DNA of 64,000 nucleotides from Methylocapsa acidiphila B2. GTDB taxonomy: Bacteria; Pseudomonadota; Alphaproteobacteria; Rhizobiales; Beijerinckiaceae. Under the pieces are notes generated by a model, which searched no databases, was not told the DNA's origin, and was given only the letters and a program-made list of their open reading frames with translations. Numbering within the stretch: position 1 is the stretch's first letter; each line of letters begins with the position of its first letter. The position numbers were made by a program, and so were the translations under genes. The DNA lies in contig NZ_KE386496.1 in assembly GCF_000427445.1 (NCBI RefSeq), forward strand, positions 2,681,504 through 2,745,503. The letters are read 5' to 3'. Positions 5,729 to 51,432 of this stretch are shown here, piece by piece.

Positions 5729-6024
5729 TTCAACAGCCGCAGCAACGCCAGTGGAAATAGATTTCCCATTTTTTCGGTGTAAACGGCGGCTCAAGATCAG
5801 ACCATCTCAAGAAAATTGTCCTTCCGTGTTTGGGAAAGCATTATTGAGGCGTCGCTCGTTGCCACGACCGGCAGTCGTTCGAAAGAGGTGCGCCGCAGAA
5901 ACGAAAGTATCGAAGATGGCTCGCGAGTGGAGAAACCACCCCCACAGGCACAACGCGATCCAAACTTGACCCGCCACCCCTCGATTGACAGAACTCCCCA
6001 CTGGTATAGTCTCCCTCCCCGCAA
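5729..6024. other. Non-coding stretch before the riboswitch
   Basis: No credible gene was seen here. The first half is AT-richer, like the preceding nuclease-like gene, and GC rises towards the riboswitch. The promoter for the cobW operon must lie in or near this stretch, but no clear -35/-10 pair was identified. Confidence 0.5.
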
Positions 6025-6210
6025 CGGTCCCTCGCTTCGAGTGGTAAAAGGGAATGCGGCGGCGCTTTCTTTCGCGCCGGAAGCCGCAGCTGCCCCCGCA
6101 ACTGTCAGCGGTGAGCCGCGCGCCACAAAGCCACTGGGACGCCGGGCGACCGGGTTCTGGGAAGGCGGCGCGGGGCTATGATCCGTGAGCCAGGAAACCT
6201 GCCGTTCAAA
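6025..6210 (+). promoter_or_regulatory. Cobalamin riboswitch upstream of cobW
   Basis: The conserved blocks of the AdoCbl riboswitch appear in order: GGTCCC...AAAAGGGAA near the 5' end, the core GCAGCTGCCCCCGCAACTG at about 6086, then AGCCACTGG, GGGAAGGC, and the B12-box region ATGATCCGTGAGCCAGGAAA with CCTGCC ending near 6203. It sits about 150 bases before cobW, on the same strand, so it should repress the cobW-cobN-cobG-cobH-cobI-cobJ run when adenosylcobalamin is abundant. A GC-rich GCCGG/CCGGC hairpin follows at 6221-6239 but has only a short T run, so the mode (transcription or translation) is not clear. Boundaries are approximate. Confidence 0.93.
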
Positions 6211-6361
6211 TCGAGCCAAGGCCGGCGGGGTGCTCCGGCTTTCATCGATGCCGGCGACCAGCTCGCCGGCGAAGGAGCCCGCATCTTTGCGGCGCTCCCG
6301 CCGAAGCGCCCGCGCGTAAATTCAACGCCGAAGGACCGGGCGCCTCGATGACGACACTCGC

Positions 6362-46171: not shown

Positions 46172-46238
46172 GCGCGACTGGATTTTGAACTCAAGGACCT
46201 CCGGCCAGCAGAGCGGCATTAGGTAGCAAGCTCACCAA
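46172..46238 (+). repeat. Long inverted repeat, left copy
   Basis: Two blocks match the minus strand at 50585-50662: 46172-46198 (GCGCGACTGGATTTTGAACT and on, 26 of 27 bases) and 46214-46238 (CGGCATTAGGTAGCAAGCTC and on, 25 of 25). The spacer differs in length and holds related CAGCAGAG/CTCTGCTG words. The pair encloses the BstA-like, transposase, Xre and P63C genes. Confidence 0.85.
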
Positions 46239-46280
46239 GTCAGATATGGCGCAGTTTTAGGCAACCCGCCACAATGCGGC

Positions 46281-46709
46281 ATGGCCGAACCGCTCGTATT
46301 CACGATGTTGCGCTCCAAGCGCGCTGAGATCGAAGATGCAATCGTCGCTTACGAAAAGCGGCTTATTGAAGCGCGCGCCAACTTGGCGCACATAACCGCG
46401 ACGTTGCGGATGTTCGAGCTAACCGACGATTTGGCATCATTGCCGGCCTATGTCGATTTGGGGCGTCTCTTCAAACGAGGCGAAGTCGTCTCCATCTGCT
46501 TCGCGGCGCTGGCCGAAGAAGGCCCGCTTGATACCCGAGAACTCGGCTTGCGAGTTGTCCGCGCCAAGGGGCTAGATGAAACGGATGGCGTCTTGCGGCA
46601 AACCGTCGTCTATCGCGTCATCCAAGCTCTCGCCATTCAGCGAAAGCGCGGGAGGGTCAGAAACACCGGGAAGCGGAGAGCGGTGCTGATCTGGGCGCTC
46701 CCGGCATGA
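46281..46709 (+). CDS. Coiled-coil plus winged-helix-like hypothetical protein
   Basis: The product has 142 residues. Residues 8-45 form a coiled coil (LRSKRAEIEDAIVAYEKRLI, EARANLAHITATLRMFEL); residues 68-140 look like a winged helix (FKRGEVVSICFAALAEEGPL, VYRVIQALAIQRKRGRVRN). The layout parallels the protein at 28231-28650. It starts 43 bases inside the left inverted repeat's boundary. It could be the regulator of the neighbouring unit; no family name is known to me. Confidence 0.55.
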   Translation: MAEPLVFTMLRSKRAEIEDAIVAYEKRLIEARANLAHITATLRMFELTDDLASLPAYVDLGRLFKRGEVVSICFAALAEEGPLDTRELGLRVVRAKGLDETDGVLRQTVVYRVIQALAIQRKRGRVRNTGKRRAVLIWALPA

Positions 46710-46843
46710 CATGCGCGTTCAGTTCAGTGCGCTGGCCGTCGGGTGACCATCCTTCGCGTCGGCGAGCGAGGCCAGCGTCATATGGGCGTTGGAGTGGTGT
46801 TGCGGGTCACATAGGACTAACCAAATGACCCACAACGCTACGC

Positions 46844-47770
46844 TTACTTGAGCAGCTTTTGCGGCTTCACTCCAAACGCCTCCAACGCCCTGTTGGCCGC
46901 TGGCGCGGTGATCCCTTGATTTTTGATTTTGGTCTCAAGGTAAGCTGGGAGGTTTTTCTTCAGATAGTGAACTCGTACCCACTTCCGAAACTCGCCTAAT
47001 GCGTCGTCAGGATAAGCATATGGCGACTGCGGGTTAGAGGCGGACTGTGGAAAATACAGAGGATAGTTATGCTCATATTTTATACGCTCTCCGTATAAAA
47101 TATCCAAGCTCTCAGCTCTCCAATACTTTCCCCAAGCTAGACCAACACTTATATCTGGGATAAAAGATGGCCCTAGGCTCGCTTTCTGCCTAATCAGCGT
47201 GACAAAAATATCTGATATCTCTTTGAAGACGCTAAAGTATCCATCAGGAACTGTATGGTGGCTTAGCGAAACTCTGTCGTGGAATTGCTGCCAAGCAATA
47301 TCATAGGACCCTGAAGGATTATATCCAACCTGCGCATAAACAAAATCATTGAAGCCCTTACGGGCAAGGGTTCTGTAATTCTTTGCTGCTCTTTCGCTGT
47401 CGCCTTGCTTGGTTTCAAAAGCATAGTATTCGAGAGTAGCCATACATACAGCATCTGGGACAGCATGATGAACTACTCCATTCTTCATGGTCGCGATGAA
47501 AGCGATTGTATCATCCGCATTCTGCGCTCTCACCAACTCGCGAATCTTTGCTTCACGAGGCTTTAGAGGCTTTTCATTCCAATTCGCTGTCATTCTGACG
47601 ATCGAAGCATTATCGACCCCGCACATGCGCGCGAGCCCGCGCATGGTCAGGAAGGAGGTTCCATCGCTGAACACCCCCATGCCAACACCGTCGATTTCTT
47701 TCTCGGCGGCGACTTGAAGTTCTAGATTGAGTTGAGCTGGTGTGATGACCTCTGGTGTCGTATTTTTCAT
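46844..47770 (-). CDS. BstA-like protein (candidate phage-defence/antirepressor family)
   Basis: The product has 308 residues from the ATG MKNTTPEVITPAQLNLELQV, which has AAAAGG upstream; a TTG start adds 20 residues without a ribosome site. The N-terminal part (FSDGTSFLTMRGLARMCGVD) resembles the KilA-N/antirepressor-type fold. The C-terminal half has DIAWQQFHDRVSLSHHTVPD, GYFSVFKEISDIFVTLIRQK, IPDISVGLAWGKYWRAESLD and PQSPYAYPDDALGEFRKWVR, which I recall from BstA-type abortive-infection proteins of prophages. The gene is AT-richer than its surroundings. The family call is from memory and needs a profile search. Confidence 0.5.
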   Translation of the reverse strand: MKNTTPEVITPAQLNLELQVAAEKEIDGVGMGVFSDGTSFLTMRGLARMCGVDNASIVRMTANWNEKPLKPREAKIRELVRAQNADDTIAFIATMKNGVVHHAVPDAVCMATLEYYAFETKQGDSERAAKNYRTLARKGFNDFVYAQVGYNPSGSYDIAWQQFHDRVSLSHHTVPDGYFSVFKEISDIFVTLIRQKASLGPSFIPDISVGLAWGKYWRAESLDILYGERIKYEHNYPLYFPQSASNPQSPYAYPDDALGEFRKWVRVHYLKKNLPAYLETKIKNQGITAPAANRALEAFGVKPQKLLK

Positions 47771-48021
47771 TTCCGCAAGCCTTTTCAGCAAGTTAGGATG
47801 GTGACCAAACTGGCTAGACTGCGTTTCCAAGACCGTTATGATCTTGAGTGCATGGAACGGGCCTAGCCATTGCTACGTCCAACCGAGGGGCCGATCGTCA
47901 TTGGCGTGGCGATCGGCTTCGCGCTGGGCCCATGAATATACACGCTTGCCGCCGAAAGTAAAATTCGGCGCGGCAGGTAGTCCATATGCTTGACGTGCAA
48001 ATTCGTCATGCGCCTATCCCC

Positions 48022-48984
48022 TCAATTAACGCTACGCTGCCAATAACCTTTCCATTGGCGCGAAACGCCATGTTGTAAGGCCGCATTCGTTGCCATGAGA
48101 TACTGTTCGCCATTGCTTACGCGCCGGTTATCCTCGCGCCAAGCCATTTCTGAGGCGTAAGCGCCAAGGTAGCGCCCGCTGATATGGTGATGCGTCCCGA
48201 TCTCGGCCCGGCGCAGGCGGGAAAAGAAGCTCTCCGCCTGATTGGTGCAAGCGTCGCCGTCTGAATAGCATTCCTCGTGATTGATGCGCTTGGTCAGGAA
48301 GCGCTCATGCAAAACATCCCAGCCGGCGGCTTGATCGGCATGGATCGTGGCCTCGGGATGAACGCGCTGGCCAATGGTCGCCACTGACTGCGCTTCGCTC
48401 TTGAACACGAAAGGCAGAGTAATCCCGTTCCGCTCGCGCATGATGACGACGACGCGGCGCTTGCCGGTTTGGTTCTCGGCAAGGCGACGATCGCGGCGGT
48501 TCTCTTTCCAATTGGCCGGCTTCACATAACCGCCGAAATAGGCGCCGTCGATCTCGACTTCGCCAGAGACGGTTTCTTCGGCCTTTTCGTCGGCAAGCGC
48601 TTCGCGGATTTTATGCGCCAGCACGAAAGCCGTCTTGTATTGCACATCCAAATCGCGAGAGAGCTGCAACGCGCTATGGCCTTTCGCGCCGTTCACAAAG
48701 ATCGCGATGGCAAGGAGAATGTCACGGATCGGCATCTTGCGGCTGGCGAAGATTGTGCCCGACGTGACGCTGAATTGATGCGAGCAAGCCTTGCATTTCC
48801 AGAGCTTGCGGGTTTCGTATTTGTAGGTCGCGCCGCATTGGCAACGCGGGCAAACCGGCTCGCCTTCGGTCGCGGTCCAGCGGATCAGGCGGAAGGCGTC
48901 ATGCGCTTCCTCATCCGAAAGCCGGGCGACCCGAGCAATGCTCAGGCTCCTTGCGGCTTTGGAAAGAAGGAAGTGCTGGCTCAC
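48022..48984 (-). CDS. IS1595 family (ISXO2-like) transposase
   Basis: This 320-residue transposase has an N-terminal zinc ribbon (CPRCQCGATYKYETRKLWKC then KACSHQF) and an ISXO2-like catalytic domain: EIDGAYFGGYVKPANWK (first Asp), ATIHADQAAGWDVLHERF (second Asp), and HEECYSDGDACTNQAESFFS (third acidic/Asn position) followed by RLRRAEIGTHHHISGRYLGA. The frame is intact, so it may be active. I could not identify terminal inverted repeats or target duplications with confidence. Its promoter is a candidate for control by the adjacent Xre protein. Confidence 0.92.
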   Translation of the reverse strand: MSQHFLLSKAARSLSIARVARLSDEEAHDAFRLIRWTATEGEPVCPRCQCGATYKYETRKLWKCKACSHQFSVTSGTIFASRKMPIRDILLAIAIFVNGAKGHSALQLSRDLDVQYKTAFVLAHKIREALADEKAEETVSGEVEIDGAYFGGYVKPANWKENRRDRRLAENQTGKRRVVVIMRERNGITLPFVFKSEAQSVATIGQRVHPEATIHADQAAGWDVLHERFLTKRINHEECYSDGDACTNQAESFFSRLRRAEIGTHHHISGRYLGAYASEMAWREDNRRVSNGEQYLMATNAALQHGVSRQWKGYWQRSVN

Positions 48985-49037
48985 TTGCAGGTCGTCCGTT
49001 TTGGATGACCTTATCTATAATAGATGATATGGATGGC

Positions 49038-49056
49038 GTCAACCTAAAAGGCTGAC
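49038..49056. promoter_or_regulatory. Palindrome between transposase and Xre genes
   Basis: GTCAACCTAAAAGGCTGAC is a near-perfect 19-bp palindrome (7 of 8 pairs per arm). On the minus strand its TTGAC end starts a TTGACG, 17 bases, TATAGA promoter pointing at the transposase gene. It lies 36 bases before the xre ATG, so it is a candidate operator for that regulator. Inference from position and symmetry only. Confidence 0.45.
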
Positions 49057-49092
49057 CTTTACAAATATTTTCGATGATGTTAGCTTTTCGGG

Positions 49093-49341
49093 ATGACGCC
49101 TGAGCAATGCCGGGCCGCCCGAGGGTGGCTGAATTGGACGCAAGCCGATCTCGCGAAAGCCGCGAACACGGCGCTTTCGACCGTGAAGGATTATGAAGGC
49201 GGACGTCGGACCCCGATGCCGAATAATCTAGCGGCAATTCAAGCTGCGCTGGAGAAGGCCGGAATCGCCTTCGTCTTTGCCGAGGGAAAGATCGCATCTG
49301 GGATTGCCTTCAAAGCGCCGCTAGAGGCGACGCCGCGCTAG
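49093..49341 (+). CDS. Xre-family helix-turn-helix regulator
   Basis: This 82-residue HTH_3 protein has the DNA-binding helices in AARGWLNWTQADLAKAANTA and LSTVKDYEGGRRTPMPNNLA, and a short C-terminal segment AALEKAGIAFVFAEGKIASG typical of small alphaproteobacterial Xre proteins. It is divergent from the transposase gene with a palindrome between. It may regulate the transposase or island genes. Confidence 0.88.
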   Translation: MTPEQCRAARGWLNWTQADLAKAANTALSTVKDYEGGRRTPMPNNLAAIQAALEKAGIAFVFAEGKIASGIAFKAPLEATPR

Positions 49342-49370
49342 AGAACCGTACAGGATTCTGCTATAAAACA

Positions 49371-49448
49371 GGTGGAGGCGGGGGGAGTCGAACCCCAGGG
49401 GGGAGACGCTGCAAATCGTTCCCTGGCACCGGCGCACCGCCCCCACAA
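49371..49448 (-). ncRNA. tmRNA 3'-end-like RNA fossil or attachment site
   Basis: Read on the minus strand, the 5' GGGGGCG can pair with the 3' CGCCTCC to form a 7-bp acceptor stem with a G-U at the third pair (the alanine identity element), followed by A and CC. A T-arm GGGGTTCGACTCCCC lies directly before, and CCAGGG/CCCTGG could form a second stem. The 3' end resembles that of ssrA (tmRNA), but the piece is too short and has no tag frame, and it does not fold as a normal tRNA. It may be a remnant left by integration at ssrA. Confidence 0.45.
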
Positions 49449-49457
49449 TTTGAAGGC

Positions 49458-50501
49458 TCAGACACTTTCGGTGTCTGGGTCTTCGTCGTCCTTGGGAGGC
49501 GGCAACGCGAACAAATCGCCAGATTGCGGCCTGAATCTTTTGCTGAACAACCGCGAAAATTCTTTCCAGTCGTCAGCTACCGATAGAAGCGTTGTTACCG
49601 CGACGATCTGTTTTTGCAGATGGGGGTCTCCGACATCCTCAGTCAAATATTTGTAGTGAAGATTCTTACGGCGCTTTTTGTCCGGCAAGATCGGATTTTT
49701 CTTTCGGAGATTGTCCAGCACGCCTTCTGGCAATTGCTTATAAATTAGTTCGTTCGTGAGCTTTCCAATGTAGTGGTTTCGCTTGTTCGATCCGGGGGCG
49801 TATTTCCAGCCGCGGACACGGTGGAGTTCAGAGTAAAAATTCTGCGGGAATCGGGACGTATAGGGCATCAAGTCTGGAGAAACATAGGCCGCCAATATTC
49901 TTTGAAGTTCGTCGCGGGCCCGAACTTGTTGATAGCCGGTTGCCTCATCAACAAGCGCAATCAAACCAATATCGGCCAAGGCTCGCATCAACGCTTCCGC
50001 GCGTTGTGCTTTGTCTAGCTGCTGCTTTTGTAGCGCCTTAGCTTCGCGGGCTCGAAGCCAAATTTCGCAAACGGCTCGAAGAATGCGCGGGTCGTATCCG
50101 ACAAAAATCCTGCGCCCATCTAAGTAATAGATTGGCTTTAAGGGCCCTTCGGCTAAGGCGCTGTCAATAAAGGGTTTTAGCTGACTCGGCGCAACAAAAA
50201 GGGGCAAAAGGGCCCCGCTCTCCTGCGAAGCTTTTTTAAGCCGCTTAGACGCCCCACTCCTGCCCCCAAGAATCGCTTCTGCAATGCCTGTTTCAGACAA
50301 TACTCGGCTACCGTCGTTTAAAACGGCGCAAGGGATTGACGCGTCACCAAGACGTAAGATGCCGGAGTATTCAACTTTTGGCAGCAACGCCGCCGCCTCT
50401 GCGCGGGCCCTCCCGCCTTCGGAGGCGATGCGCTGCCGATCTTCAGGGCTTAGGAGTTCAGCACGCGCTTTGCCGCCCTTGCTCTGTTTTGATTCGTCCA
50501 T
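49458..50501 (-). CDS. P63C domain protein
   Basis: The product has 347 residues. The N-terminus carries a basic KGGKARAELLSPEDRQRIAS repeat-like helix (GGxARA twice). The C-terminal two thirds is a P63C domain: IALVDEATGYQQVRARDELQ, YTSRFPQNFYSELHRVRGW, HYIGKLTNELIYKQLPEGVL, DNLRKKNPI and a final DDWKEFSRLFSKRF. P63C proteins are found in phages and integrative elements, often with KilA-N-type proteins; biochemical function is unknown. The gene is AT-richer than core genes. It ends about 10 bases from the tmRNA-like element. Confidence 0.8.
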   Translation of the reverse strand: MDESKQSKGGKARAELLSPEDRQRIASEGGRARAEAAALLPKVEYSGILRLGDASIPCAVLNDGSRVLSETGIAEAILGGRSGASKRLKKASQESGALLPLFVAPSQLKPFIDSALAEGPLKPIYYLDGRRIFVGYDPRILRAVCEIWLRAREAKALQKQQLDKAQRAEALMRALADIGLIALVDEATGYQQVRARDELQRILAAYVSPDLMPYTSRFPQNFYSELHRVRGWKYAPGSNKRNHYIGKLTNELIYKQLPEGVLDNLRKKNPILPDKKRRKNLHYKYLTEDVGDPHLQKQIVAVTTLLSVADDWKEFSRLFSKRFRPQSGDLFALPPPKDDEDPDTESV

Positions 50502-50584
50502 CTATGGGGCCCTTAAATTGCCACCTATTTTGGACTTATAGCTTGCTAATTTCGATTCGCGCAAGCTGTCTCATAAAAATTGTT

Positions 50585-50662
50585 TTGGTGAGCTTGCTAC
50601 CTAATGCCGCAGCAGAGCTGGCGCGCCTTTGGCGCGTCCTTGACTTCAAAATCCAGTCGCGC
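50585..50662 (-). repeat. Long inverted repeat, right copy
   Basis: The minus-strand partner of 46172-46238: 50585-50609 is identical over 25 bases and 50636-50662 matches 26 of 27. The spacer here contains a GCGCGCC-TTT-GGCGCG hairpin. Weaker similarity continues outward (CCTTAA...CGGAA in both). Confidence 0.85.
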
Positions 50663-50736: not shown

Positions 50737-50772
50737 TTGACACAAAACCCGTGTCACACGATATCCGTGTCA
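50737..50772 (+). promoter_or_regulatory. Toxin-antitoxin promoter with direct repeats
   Basis: TTGACA (50737-50742), 17 bases, GATATC (50760-50765) forms a good sigma-70 promoter. Two direct repeats CCGTGTCA (50749-50756 and 50765-50772) are 16 bases apart and overlap it, as expected for ribbon-helix-helix autoregulation. The antitoxin ATG at 50772 lies only about 7 bases after the -10 hexamer, so the mRNA may be leaderless. Confidence 0.6.
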
Positions 50773-51131
50773 TGAAAAACCTCACCATCACGTTGCGCGA
50801 GGATGTCGCCGAATGGCTCCGCGTCGCGGCGGCCAAGTCGGGCCTGAGCATGTCCGCCTATGTCGGCGACCTGTTGGAAACCCGCATGGGGCGCGGCAAG
50901 GCGCAAATGGAAGGGCTCGAATATTTCCTCAGCGGTCCGGGCTTCCCCGGCGTTTCCGCCGATCTGCCCAAGCGGGAGGAGCTTTATGACCGCGCGGCTC
51001 TTCATCGACACGAACATCCTGATCTACGCCCTCGATCCGGGGGCGCCGGAAAAGCGCGCGATCTCCGCGGATTTGCTGAGGCGGACGATCAAGAGCCATA
51101 CGCTGGTCCTAAGTCCTCAAAACCTGAATGA
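50772..51131 (+). CDS. Ribbon-helix-helix antitoxin
   Basis: The first 40 residues (MKNLTITLREDVAEWLRVAA, then KSGLSMSAYVGDLLETRMGR) are a ribbon-helix-helix DNA-binding domain; residues 40-72 (FLSGPGFPGVSADLPKREEL) would be the toxin-binding arm. The frame has no stop where the toxin begins, and continues 146 bases inside the toxin gene to give 119 residues, with a low-complexity Arg/Gly-rich tail that looks like out-of-frame translation. The natural end may have been lost, or the overlap is real. It is paired with the PIN toxin. Confidence 0.75.
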   Translation: MKNLTITLREDVAEWLRVAAAKSGLSMSAYVGDLLETRMGRGKAQMEGLEYFLSGPGFPGVSADLPKREELYDRAALHRHEHPDLRPRSGGAGKARDLRGFAEADDQEPYAGPKSSKPE

Positions 51132-51432
51132 ATGCTATAGGGTTTTGACGCAGAGGCGCCGTCTGGCGTCGGTCGAGGCGGCCCGCGCCTTCCTGACCCA
51201 TCTCATGCCTTGGTGCGTCGCGCCGCTCGACGCGCAAACGACGCTCAAGGCCTGGGCGGTTCAGGACGAGGCCGGCCTTGCCTGGTGGGACGCGCTTTTG
51301 ATCGCCTCGGCCCTTATAGCCGGGTGCAAGCTCTTCATTTCCGAGGACATGCAGGATGGCCAGTTGATTTCCGGCATGCGGATCGTCAATCCATTCGGCG
51401 CGGACTTCTTGAGCCGCCTCGCCAAACAATAG
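50986..51432 (+). CDS. PIN-domain toxin (VapC-like RNase)
   Basis: This 148-residue PIN-domain protein is a probable Mg-dependent ribonuclease toxin. Acidic residues: Asp 8 in MTARLFIDTNILIYALDP, Glu in LSPQNLNECYRVL, Asp in AWWDALLIASALIAGCKLF, and Asp in ISEDMQDGQLI. A GGAGG site lies in the antitoxin frame just before its ATG. It ends 14 bases before ychF, which may therefore be partly transcribed from the toxin-antitoxin promoter. Confidence 0.88.
   Translation: MTARLFIDTNILIYALDPGAPEKRAISADLLRRTIKSHTLVLSPQNLNECYRVLTQRRRLASVEAARAFLTHLMPWCVAPLDAQTTLKAWAVQDEAGLAWWDALLIASALIAGCKLFISEDMQDGQLISGMRIVNPFGADFLSRLAKQ

Follow-up and report, generated by a model that had tools for sequence, protein, structure and literature searches.

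The 64,000-nt stretch of DNA examined here (the window; Methylocapsa acidiphila B2, contig NZ_KE386496.1) carries an IS1595-family transposon of 4,396 bp at 46214-50609. Between its ends lie genes for a winged-helix protein, a BstA protein, an IS1595-family transposase, an Xre-type regulator and a P63C-domain protein, together with a gene for a transfer RNA (tRNA)-like RNA (Table 1). The protein genes had been listed in an earlier description made from the letters alone (the sequence-only reading); profiles confirm BstA, the transposase, Xre and P63C, and a structural model of the remaining protein has the layout of a winged helix. The unit is very probably a transporter-type IS1595 transposon that combines a core module with two cargo places, and in which BstA is cargo.

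Table 1. Features of the transposon and its insertion site in the window.
Feature	Position	Strand	Basis
Left arm of resident palindromic repeat, outside the transposon	46172..46198	.	Repeat comparison, genus scan
Left 8-bp target site duplication, CAGCAGAG	46206..46213	.	Same offset gives exact 8-bp duplications in 18/20 paired-end elements
Left terminal inverted repeat, CGGCATTAGGTAGCAAGCTCACCAA	46214..46238	+	25/25 identical to right end; two genome copies only
Winged-helix protein, long N-terminal helix, 142 aa	46281..46709	+	Homologue in 15/20 paired-end elements; model
BstA, 308 aa from Met at 47770 (start in the list of open reading frames: upstream TTG, 47830)	46844..47770	-	PHROG 6287 6.7e-93; PADLOC BstA 3.4e-121
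IS1595-family transposase, zinc ribbon and DDE domain, frame open	48022..48984	-	Pfam DDE_Tnp_IS1595 8.7e-42
Xre-type regulator, divergent from transposase	49093..49341	+	Pfam HTH_3 7.5e-08; in 17/20 paired-end elements
tRNA-like RNA gene, 74 nt, AUUUGCAG	49371..49444	-	Covariance-model match, fold, covariation
P63C-domain protein	49458..50501	-	Pfam PF10546 6.8e-33; PHROG 2384 2.3e-94
Right terminal inverted repeat	50585..50609	-	25/25 identical to left end
Right 8-bp target site duplication, CAGCAGAG	50610..50617	.	Exact copy of left duplication
Right arm of resident palindrome, outside the transposon	50636..50662	.	Repeat comparison, genus scan

Two pairs of inverted repeats frame these genes, and both are where the sequence-only reading placed them. 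The inner arms (46213-46238 and 50585-50610) match at 26/26 bases, of which 25 are the transposon end and one is an extra matching base, and the outer arms (46172-46198 and 50636-50662) match at 26/27. The 8-bp sequence CAGCAGAG stands directly outside both 25-bp ends as an exact match. A scan of the 4.1-Mb genome with 23 end bases, allowing up to 3 mismatches, returned the window's two places only and no reversed-pattern controls, so the inner repeat is not due to chance. Of the features of the IS1595 family, as described in the excerpted text of PMC8101967, the window has the DDE_Tnp_IS1595 domain with an N-terminal zinc ribbon, the terminal inverted repeats and the 8-bp duplication. In the parts of PMC5704250 that were available, the transporter-type IS1595 (tIS) elements tISCpe8 and MTnSag1 resemble the window element in that they have an IS1595 transposase, inverted ends of 25 bp, target repeats of 8 bp and passenger genes. 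The two are described as a lincomycin-resistance element and a mobilizable transposon, whereas the window cargo is BstA and P63C, accompanied by a module of Xre and the tRNA-like RNA.

The earlier description had joined inner and outer repeat into one bipartite repeat, which does not hold: the inner repeat is the transposon end and the outer one is an unrelated resident palindrome that served as the target. That the bipartite repeat as a whole ends one larger mobile unit is hardly credible. Both arm pairs are inverted and enclose the same genes, as such a unit would have them, but the 8-bp duplication sits between outer and inner repeat, the inner repeat is found in other, unrelated flanks in relatives, and the outer repeat occurs on its own, in the form of a short palindrome, at other places in the genome and in the genus. 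A single combined end was therefore rejected. One further inverted pair of the outer repeat exists in the genome (G000:C2:474488-474560, arms 35 bases apart), and sequences like it (up to 2 mismatches) occur in 10/15 genus genomes, its own included, many as close inverted pairs. The sequence-only reading had itself held that a common solitary repeat would speak against it; the outer repeat is one, in those 10/15 genomes, but the inner repeat, at two genome sites, is not. When the transposon and one CAGCAGAG are taken out in silico, the joined flanks form a hairpin of this kind, whose tip is made up of the duplicated bases (z -5.7 relative to 100 shuffles). The outer repeat is therefore the target and not part of the mobile unit, and the transposon is evidently inserted into the loop of a short resident intergenic palindrome.

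Relatives of the element were collected in two sets. In the bacterial family, the end sequence (up to 3 mismatches) is found in 41/397 genomes, with the reversed control zero in every row listed, and the first set comprises 31 loci taken from end-bearing genomes that make up a part of these 41. Both ends are present in 20 elements, the window's included, and exact 8-bp duplications lie directly outside the ends in 18 of these; the two paired-end elements without a duplication, L071 and L078, are also without a transposase. For the second set, a transposase alignment was scanned over 84,980 species genomes and the best 80 of 285 relatives were kept, whose record titles are mostly Alphaproteobacteria, with two naming other phyla (L169 and L197, metagenome assemblies). 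L238, in which a second transposase had been picked, was excluded from the count of ends and duplications. Among the 79 loci scored, 52 combine an exact 8-bp duplication with ends that match at 20/24 bases or more, and 42/67 do so once 12 loci with transposase DNA identical to first-set loci are removed. Only 3/389 combinations pass in a mispaired control, all three of which join elements sharing a target sequence. These recurrences uphold the proposal of the sequence-only reading that the unit is mobile, although it is an ordinary-sized DDE transposon and not the composite island offered as the other possibility.

The 20 paired-end elements share a recognizable set of genes: 18 contain transposase sequence, 17 have Xre and 15 have the winged-helix gene. 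Their usual order runs from one end through the winged-helix gene, a first cargo place (A), the transposase, the divergent Xre, the tRNA-like RNA and a second cargo place (B) to the other end. In the window, BstA occupies the place between the winged-helix gene and the transposase, and P63C followed by the tRNA-like RNA lies between Xre and the far end. The P63C and tRNA-like genes share a strand, and 13 nt separate the end of the first from the second. The transposase is 71-89% identical to 14 relatives, with many positions invariant in 15/15 aligned sequences. The winged-helix protein shares 39-57% identity with 17 aligned homologues; it has no Pfam match, and a fold search gave no PDB match at E 0.001, while its model shows a long helix followed by HHH-EE, the winged-helix layout (predicted local distance difference test, pLDDT, 82.6; predicted template modelling score, pTM, 0.56).

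By contrast with this core, the cargo changes from element to element. Pfam was run on 30 cargo-region open reading frames (ORFs) of relatives and matched 16 at 0.01, some of them weakly or to other transposases. The cargo so recognized includes a methylase fused to an Mrr-type nuclease (L067, L076, L079), Panacea-domain proteins (L059, L064, L072), HTH-M78 proteins (L060, L062), a Tle1-like lipase (L075), and DUF1643 and dCTP-deaminase-like proteins (L063). In L062, PADLOC identifies RmrT (6.8e-41) next to RmrA (3.5e-148); it gave no name for 6/10 cargo proteins tried. Relatives of the window element differ from tISCpe8 and MTnSag1, as the available parts of PMC5704250 present them, in having other defence or toxin-antitoxin type genes as cargo. 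A fixed partnership between BstA and P63C, whose co-occurrence the sequence-only reading had proposed to tabulate, finds no support: tblastn over 122 loci placed P63C in 11 (10 distinct, as L122 and L194 have the same transposase DNA) and BstA in 2, and both together in the window only. The constant part is, from these comparisons, the transposase, Xre, winged helix and tRNA-like RNA, with BstA and P63C as exchangeable cargo.

BstA and P63C are both known from phages, and a satellite phage has P63C close to an Xre gene, so the locus might be read as a prophage or satellite remnant into which an IS1595 gene was inserted later. This is very improbable. The Pfam, PHROG and PADLOC profiles recognized no phage structural gene among the element's genes, and repeat lists inspected by eye revealed no separate end repeats with a duplication around the transposase alone. 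Moreover, the same ends recur in relatives with the transposase inside and with other cargo. A scan of viral contigs for the exact terminal inverted repeat returned 0 matches.

The window BstA is matched over its full length by BstA profiles and is 41.9% identical to the abortive-infection protein BstA of prophage BTP1. In the sections of PMC8585504 consulted, the BTP1 protein is prophage-borne and has a cognate aba DNA element, whereas the window BstA is transposon-borne, and around its start there are only short 6-7-base repeats and no evident aba-like pair of end repeats. The same sections report that 79% of 72 BstA homologues are prophage-associated and 15/72 prophage-independent; a prophage neighbourhood is thus common for BstA but not required, and the window BstA, with no phage structural gene among the element's profile hits, does not have one.

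Other IS1595 elements carry BstA as well. The window protein is 67% identical to the BstA of L206, a Belnapia moabensis element with ends matching at 19/24 and the duplication GACCTCTC, and the alignment begins at Met 47770. There too BstA lies between the transposase and the winged-helix gene, but on the opposite strand relative to the transposase when compared with the window. L206 was found via its transposase and is therefore not an independent test. A search with the BstA protein through 199 genomes of the order gave five matches, which are the window, near-full-length ones in G031 and G043, and two that are partial or broken. At the G031 and G043 loci (L254 and L255), ORFs and Pfam show an IS1595 transposase gene whose end overlaps BstA, and these transposases are only 29-32% identical to that of the window. 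L254 has 19/20 matching end bases and the exact 8-bp duplication ATTATCAA; L255 has 16/20 and the exact 8-bp duplication TAATTTAT, and its 2.1 kb contain no ORF of 110 aa or longer besides the transposase and BstA. At least three IS1595 groups bounded by end repeats and 8-bp duplications therefore have BstA among their cargo (window, L206, L254, L255). A pattern scan of the genome contigs for BstA, sensitive to close relatives only, matched 32 stretches, none of which coded for a relative. The literature searched yielded no paper with both BstA and IS1595, and "IS1595" is absent from the main text of PMC8585504, the part within scope. BstA as IS1595 cargo looks new, as it was not found in print in that literature. 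Its presence in three IS1595 groups, with overlap of the transposase gene in two, supplies at least some of the "prophage-independent" copies with a vehicle and a way to spread.

The remaining core feature was described in the sequence-only reading as a transfer-messenger RNA (tmRNA)-like element. An RNA element is indeed present at 49370-49444 on the minus strand, but it is a 74-nt tRNA-like cloverleaf and not a tmRNA. RF00023 (tmRNA) matches these positions with 30.5 bits, under the gathering score of 47, and the match skips the middle of the model; ARAGORN makes no call in the 64,000-nt window. The window copy folds into a cloverleaf with an 8-bp acceptor containing G3-U70, A73, a short D arm, an 8-nt loop at the anticodon position, and a T arm of 4 bp with the loop UUCGACU. 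Its acceptor/T end is like that of tmRNA, G3-U70 included. A tmRNA identity is nevertheless not favoured, as the RNA has only 74 nt and no mRNA-like domain and RF00023 matches by the tmRNA ends only. Nor is an integrase attachment site favoured.

Covariation supports the fold. In 12 related copies, 96.8% of cells are paired under the four-helix structure, and 9/21 pairs change on both sides, with at least one per helix, which was reached by 0/500 shuffles. Sliding the partners destroys this signal, and one of five measures, that of further pair types, was unremarkable (67/500 shuffles). In a wider set of 16, the acceptor and T stem give 30 double-change cells (0/500 shuffles), while two count measures were not above shuffles (142 and 257 of 500). 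A covariance model of the 16 copies produced 26 hits of at least 46 bits in the 397 family genomes, followed by a gap and then a plateau at up to 39.1 bits, from which six hits were checked and all proved to be tRNA-Ala(CGC). Sixteen of the 26 strong hits are training sequences; of the other 10, 8 adjoin a transposase of the same group (L067, L122-L128), one of these a fragment. The other two of these 10, L120, which has an end-like sequence only, and L121, do not, and overall 23/26 adjoin the transposase. The L121 copy, at 6009-6079, has a winged-helix-like ORF on one side and a tRNA-Ser gene on the other and is outside any recognized IS1595 element. Two different tRNA-like genes stand in tandem in L069 (1715-1787 and 1818-1887).

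The position of the RNA within the elements is also regular. It occurs in 15/17 paired-end elements with transposase and Xre, beyond Xre and on the opposite strand. Within the second set, again the best 80 of 285, it is found at 21/33 loci with Xre beside the transposase versus 1/47 without, and at 10/21 versus 1/47 when first-set repeats are left out (Fisher p 1.1e-5). L149 has the RNA beside a distant IS1595 transposase, between other inverted repeats. Model R1 of the tRNA-like RNA gave no match at seven BstA loci (L206, L254 and L255 included), and likewise none in four plasmid regions with IS1595 and two phage regions with P63C. At seven Methylobacterium/Methylorubrum loci that have Xre and no tRNA-like match (L186, L187, L188, L212, L216, L220, L240), a small ORF (...YFCVNGGTVSKIVRGL...) seems, by eye, to be there instead.

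This regularity bears on the possibility that the RNA is a functionless, degenerate tRNA or tmRNA end left behind by an integrase-type insertion. The match to tmRNA ends only, the silence of ARAGORN and the CC after A73 that is not encoded in 5/39 copies would suit such a relic; its fixed place in 15/17 elements, the both-side pair changes in all four helices and the 8/10 strong untrained hits beside a transposase of the same group (one a fragment) would not, and the idea is unlikely. All 39 distinct copies keep G1-C72, G2-C71, G3-U70 and A73, and a following CC is encoded in 34. The first 16 copies were obtained with a pattern demanding 5' GGG and 3' TCCACC on loci chosen for transposon ends, and the later ones with a model trained on those 16, except L065 and L067, which were first seen by eye. 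The invariance of G3-U70 is thus partly built in, because the first pattern and the model favour these letters. G3-U70 is the major identity element for alanyl-tRNA synthetase (PMC7609411), and the invariance of G3-U70 and A73 is suggestive of an alanine tRNA-like identity.

A further interpretation is that the fold serves as a 3' processing or boundary element, through RNase P cleavage or as the end of a cargo mRNA, and is not a chargeable RNA. Upstream of the RNA, at a distance of 8-170 nt, 28/38 loci have the end of a same-strand ORF that is 90 aa or longer (such ORFs are mechanical, and not all are shown to be genes); in several loci this ORF is P63C, winged-helix-like or Xre-like, and in L149 an ORF overlaps the RNA. 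This interpretation is possible, if the less probable one, and it leaves the invariant G3-U70 and A73 unexplained, though the search favours these letters.

The allo-tRNAs are among the known RNAs closest to the tRNA-like RNA. As far as the consulted parts of that literature go, allo-tRNAs share the 8/4 acceptor/T branch with the window copy, some have G3-U70, and their anticodon arms are diverse. The RNAs described here differ in that the anticodon-position loop is often 8 nt, that they have a recurrent place in a defined transposon family, and that 17 of 27 relatives score best as 7/5, with 8/4 or 9/3 found in the window copy and 9 others. In the portion of a review available, tRNA look-alikes of soil bacteria are suspected to accompany transposons or toxin-antitoxin systems. 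No paper with both "IS1595" and "tRNA-like" was found in the literature searched, and the tRNA-Ala-like RNA as a recurrent element part looks new, being likewise not found in print there. The element makes a dormant question testable, as it offers defined boundaries, a partner regulator and 39 natural variants. If true, the tRNA-Ala-like reading would give irregular transposon-linked tRNA-like RNAs both a home and a function.

Taken as a mechanism, the transposase would act on the 25-bp ends and insert the element with an 8-bp target duplication, the target here probably being the loop of a resident intergenic hairpin. Xre, divergent from the transposase, would act as a repressor. The most likely role of BstA is to protect the host population through abortive infection. 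Such protection would favour spread of the element, and relatives carry other cargo of defence or toxin-antitoxin type. The tRNA-like RNA may be recognized by alanyl-tRNA synthetase and take part in the control of the element or its cargo. We infer that this copy is still active and that BstA defends here. More broadly, the chances seem evenly balanced that this IS1595 family, mostly of Alphaproteobacteria, is a vehicle for exchangeable anti-phage cargo with its own tRNA-Ala-like RNA, selected for recognition by alanyl-tRNA synthetase and working in an Xre control circuit.

Several observations weigh against the transposon reading. The genome holds a single copy of the element and hence no sign of recent movement; no sister genome with an orthologous empty site was found, the empty site being shown just by joining the flanks; and among relatives the transposase gene is broken in L064 and split in L070. 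In the DNA examined, no IS1595 gene is present at three additional BstA loci, which come from other branches of the phylum (309 of its genomes searched), at two plasmid BstA loci, or at two partial or contig-edge loci. BstA, judged by these neighbourhoods, repeatedly rides IS1595 elements, though not always, and is not tied to IS1595 in general. The tRNA-like RNA is missing from 2/17 paired-end elements with transposase and Xre (L061, L072), and has no match at 12/33 Xre-bearing loci of the second set (11/21 without duplicates).

The choice of target differs between the window element and most of its relatives. Glycosyltransferase-2-like genes hold 12 of the 18 first-set insertions, which fall on two sites (8 and 4 insertions), as found with queries from two of them, and which come from different genomes and in both orientations (L059-L079 flanks). 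Pfam matched one flank to Glyco_tranf_2_3 (5.7e-11) and none of three other flank pieces. The element in the window does not follow this pattern. At a guess, losing a surface-sugar enzyme could in itself have an effect on phages. Among the 18 sites, two stand out as hairpins, the window site (z -5.7) and that of L067 (z -6.6), with L066 a weak third (z -2.4). A general preference for hairpins is not supported, most of the other 17 sites not being hairpins. The six elements L221, L231, L236, L239, L242 and L245 have the target duplication AGCGCCTC in common, a further sign of group-specific target choice.

The genome also carries two sister IS1595 elements, L157 and L158 (G000:C2, at 3.54 Mb and 0.39 Mb), with transposase identities of 56 and 55%. 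Both have the ends CGGTATTATGGCGCAAC and a winged-helix gene, with no Xre match and no tRNA-like match, and the duplication of L157, GGATAGTC, is similar to that of the glycosyltransferase-site elements. Elsewhere in the window, a cobalamin riboswitch (RF00174, 107 bits) lies at 6008-6220 on the plus strand. Just outside the right end of the transposon, at 50751-51432 on the plus strand, a small ORF is followed by a PIN-domain gene (Pfam 1.2e-14), possibly a toxin-antitoxin pair.

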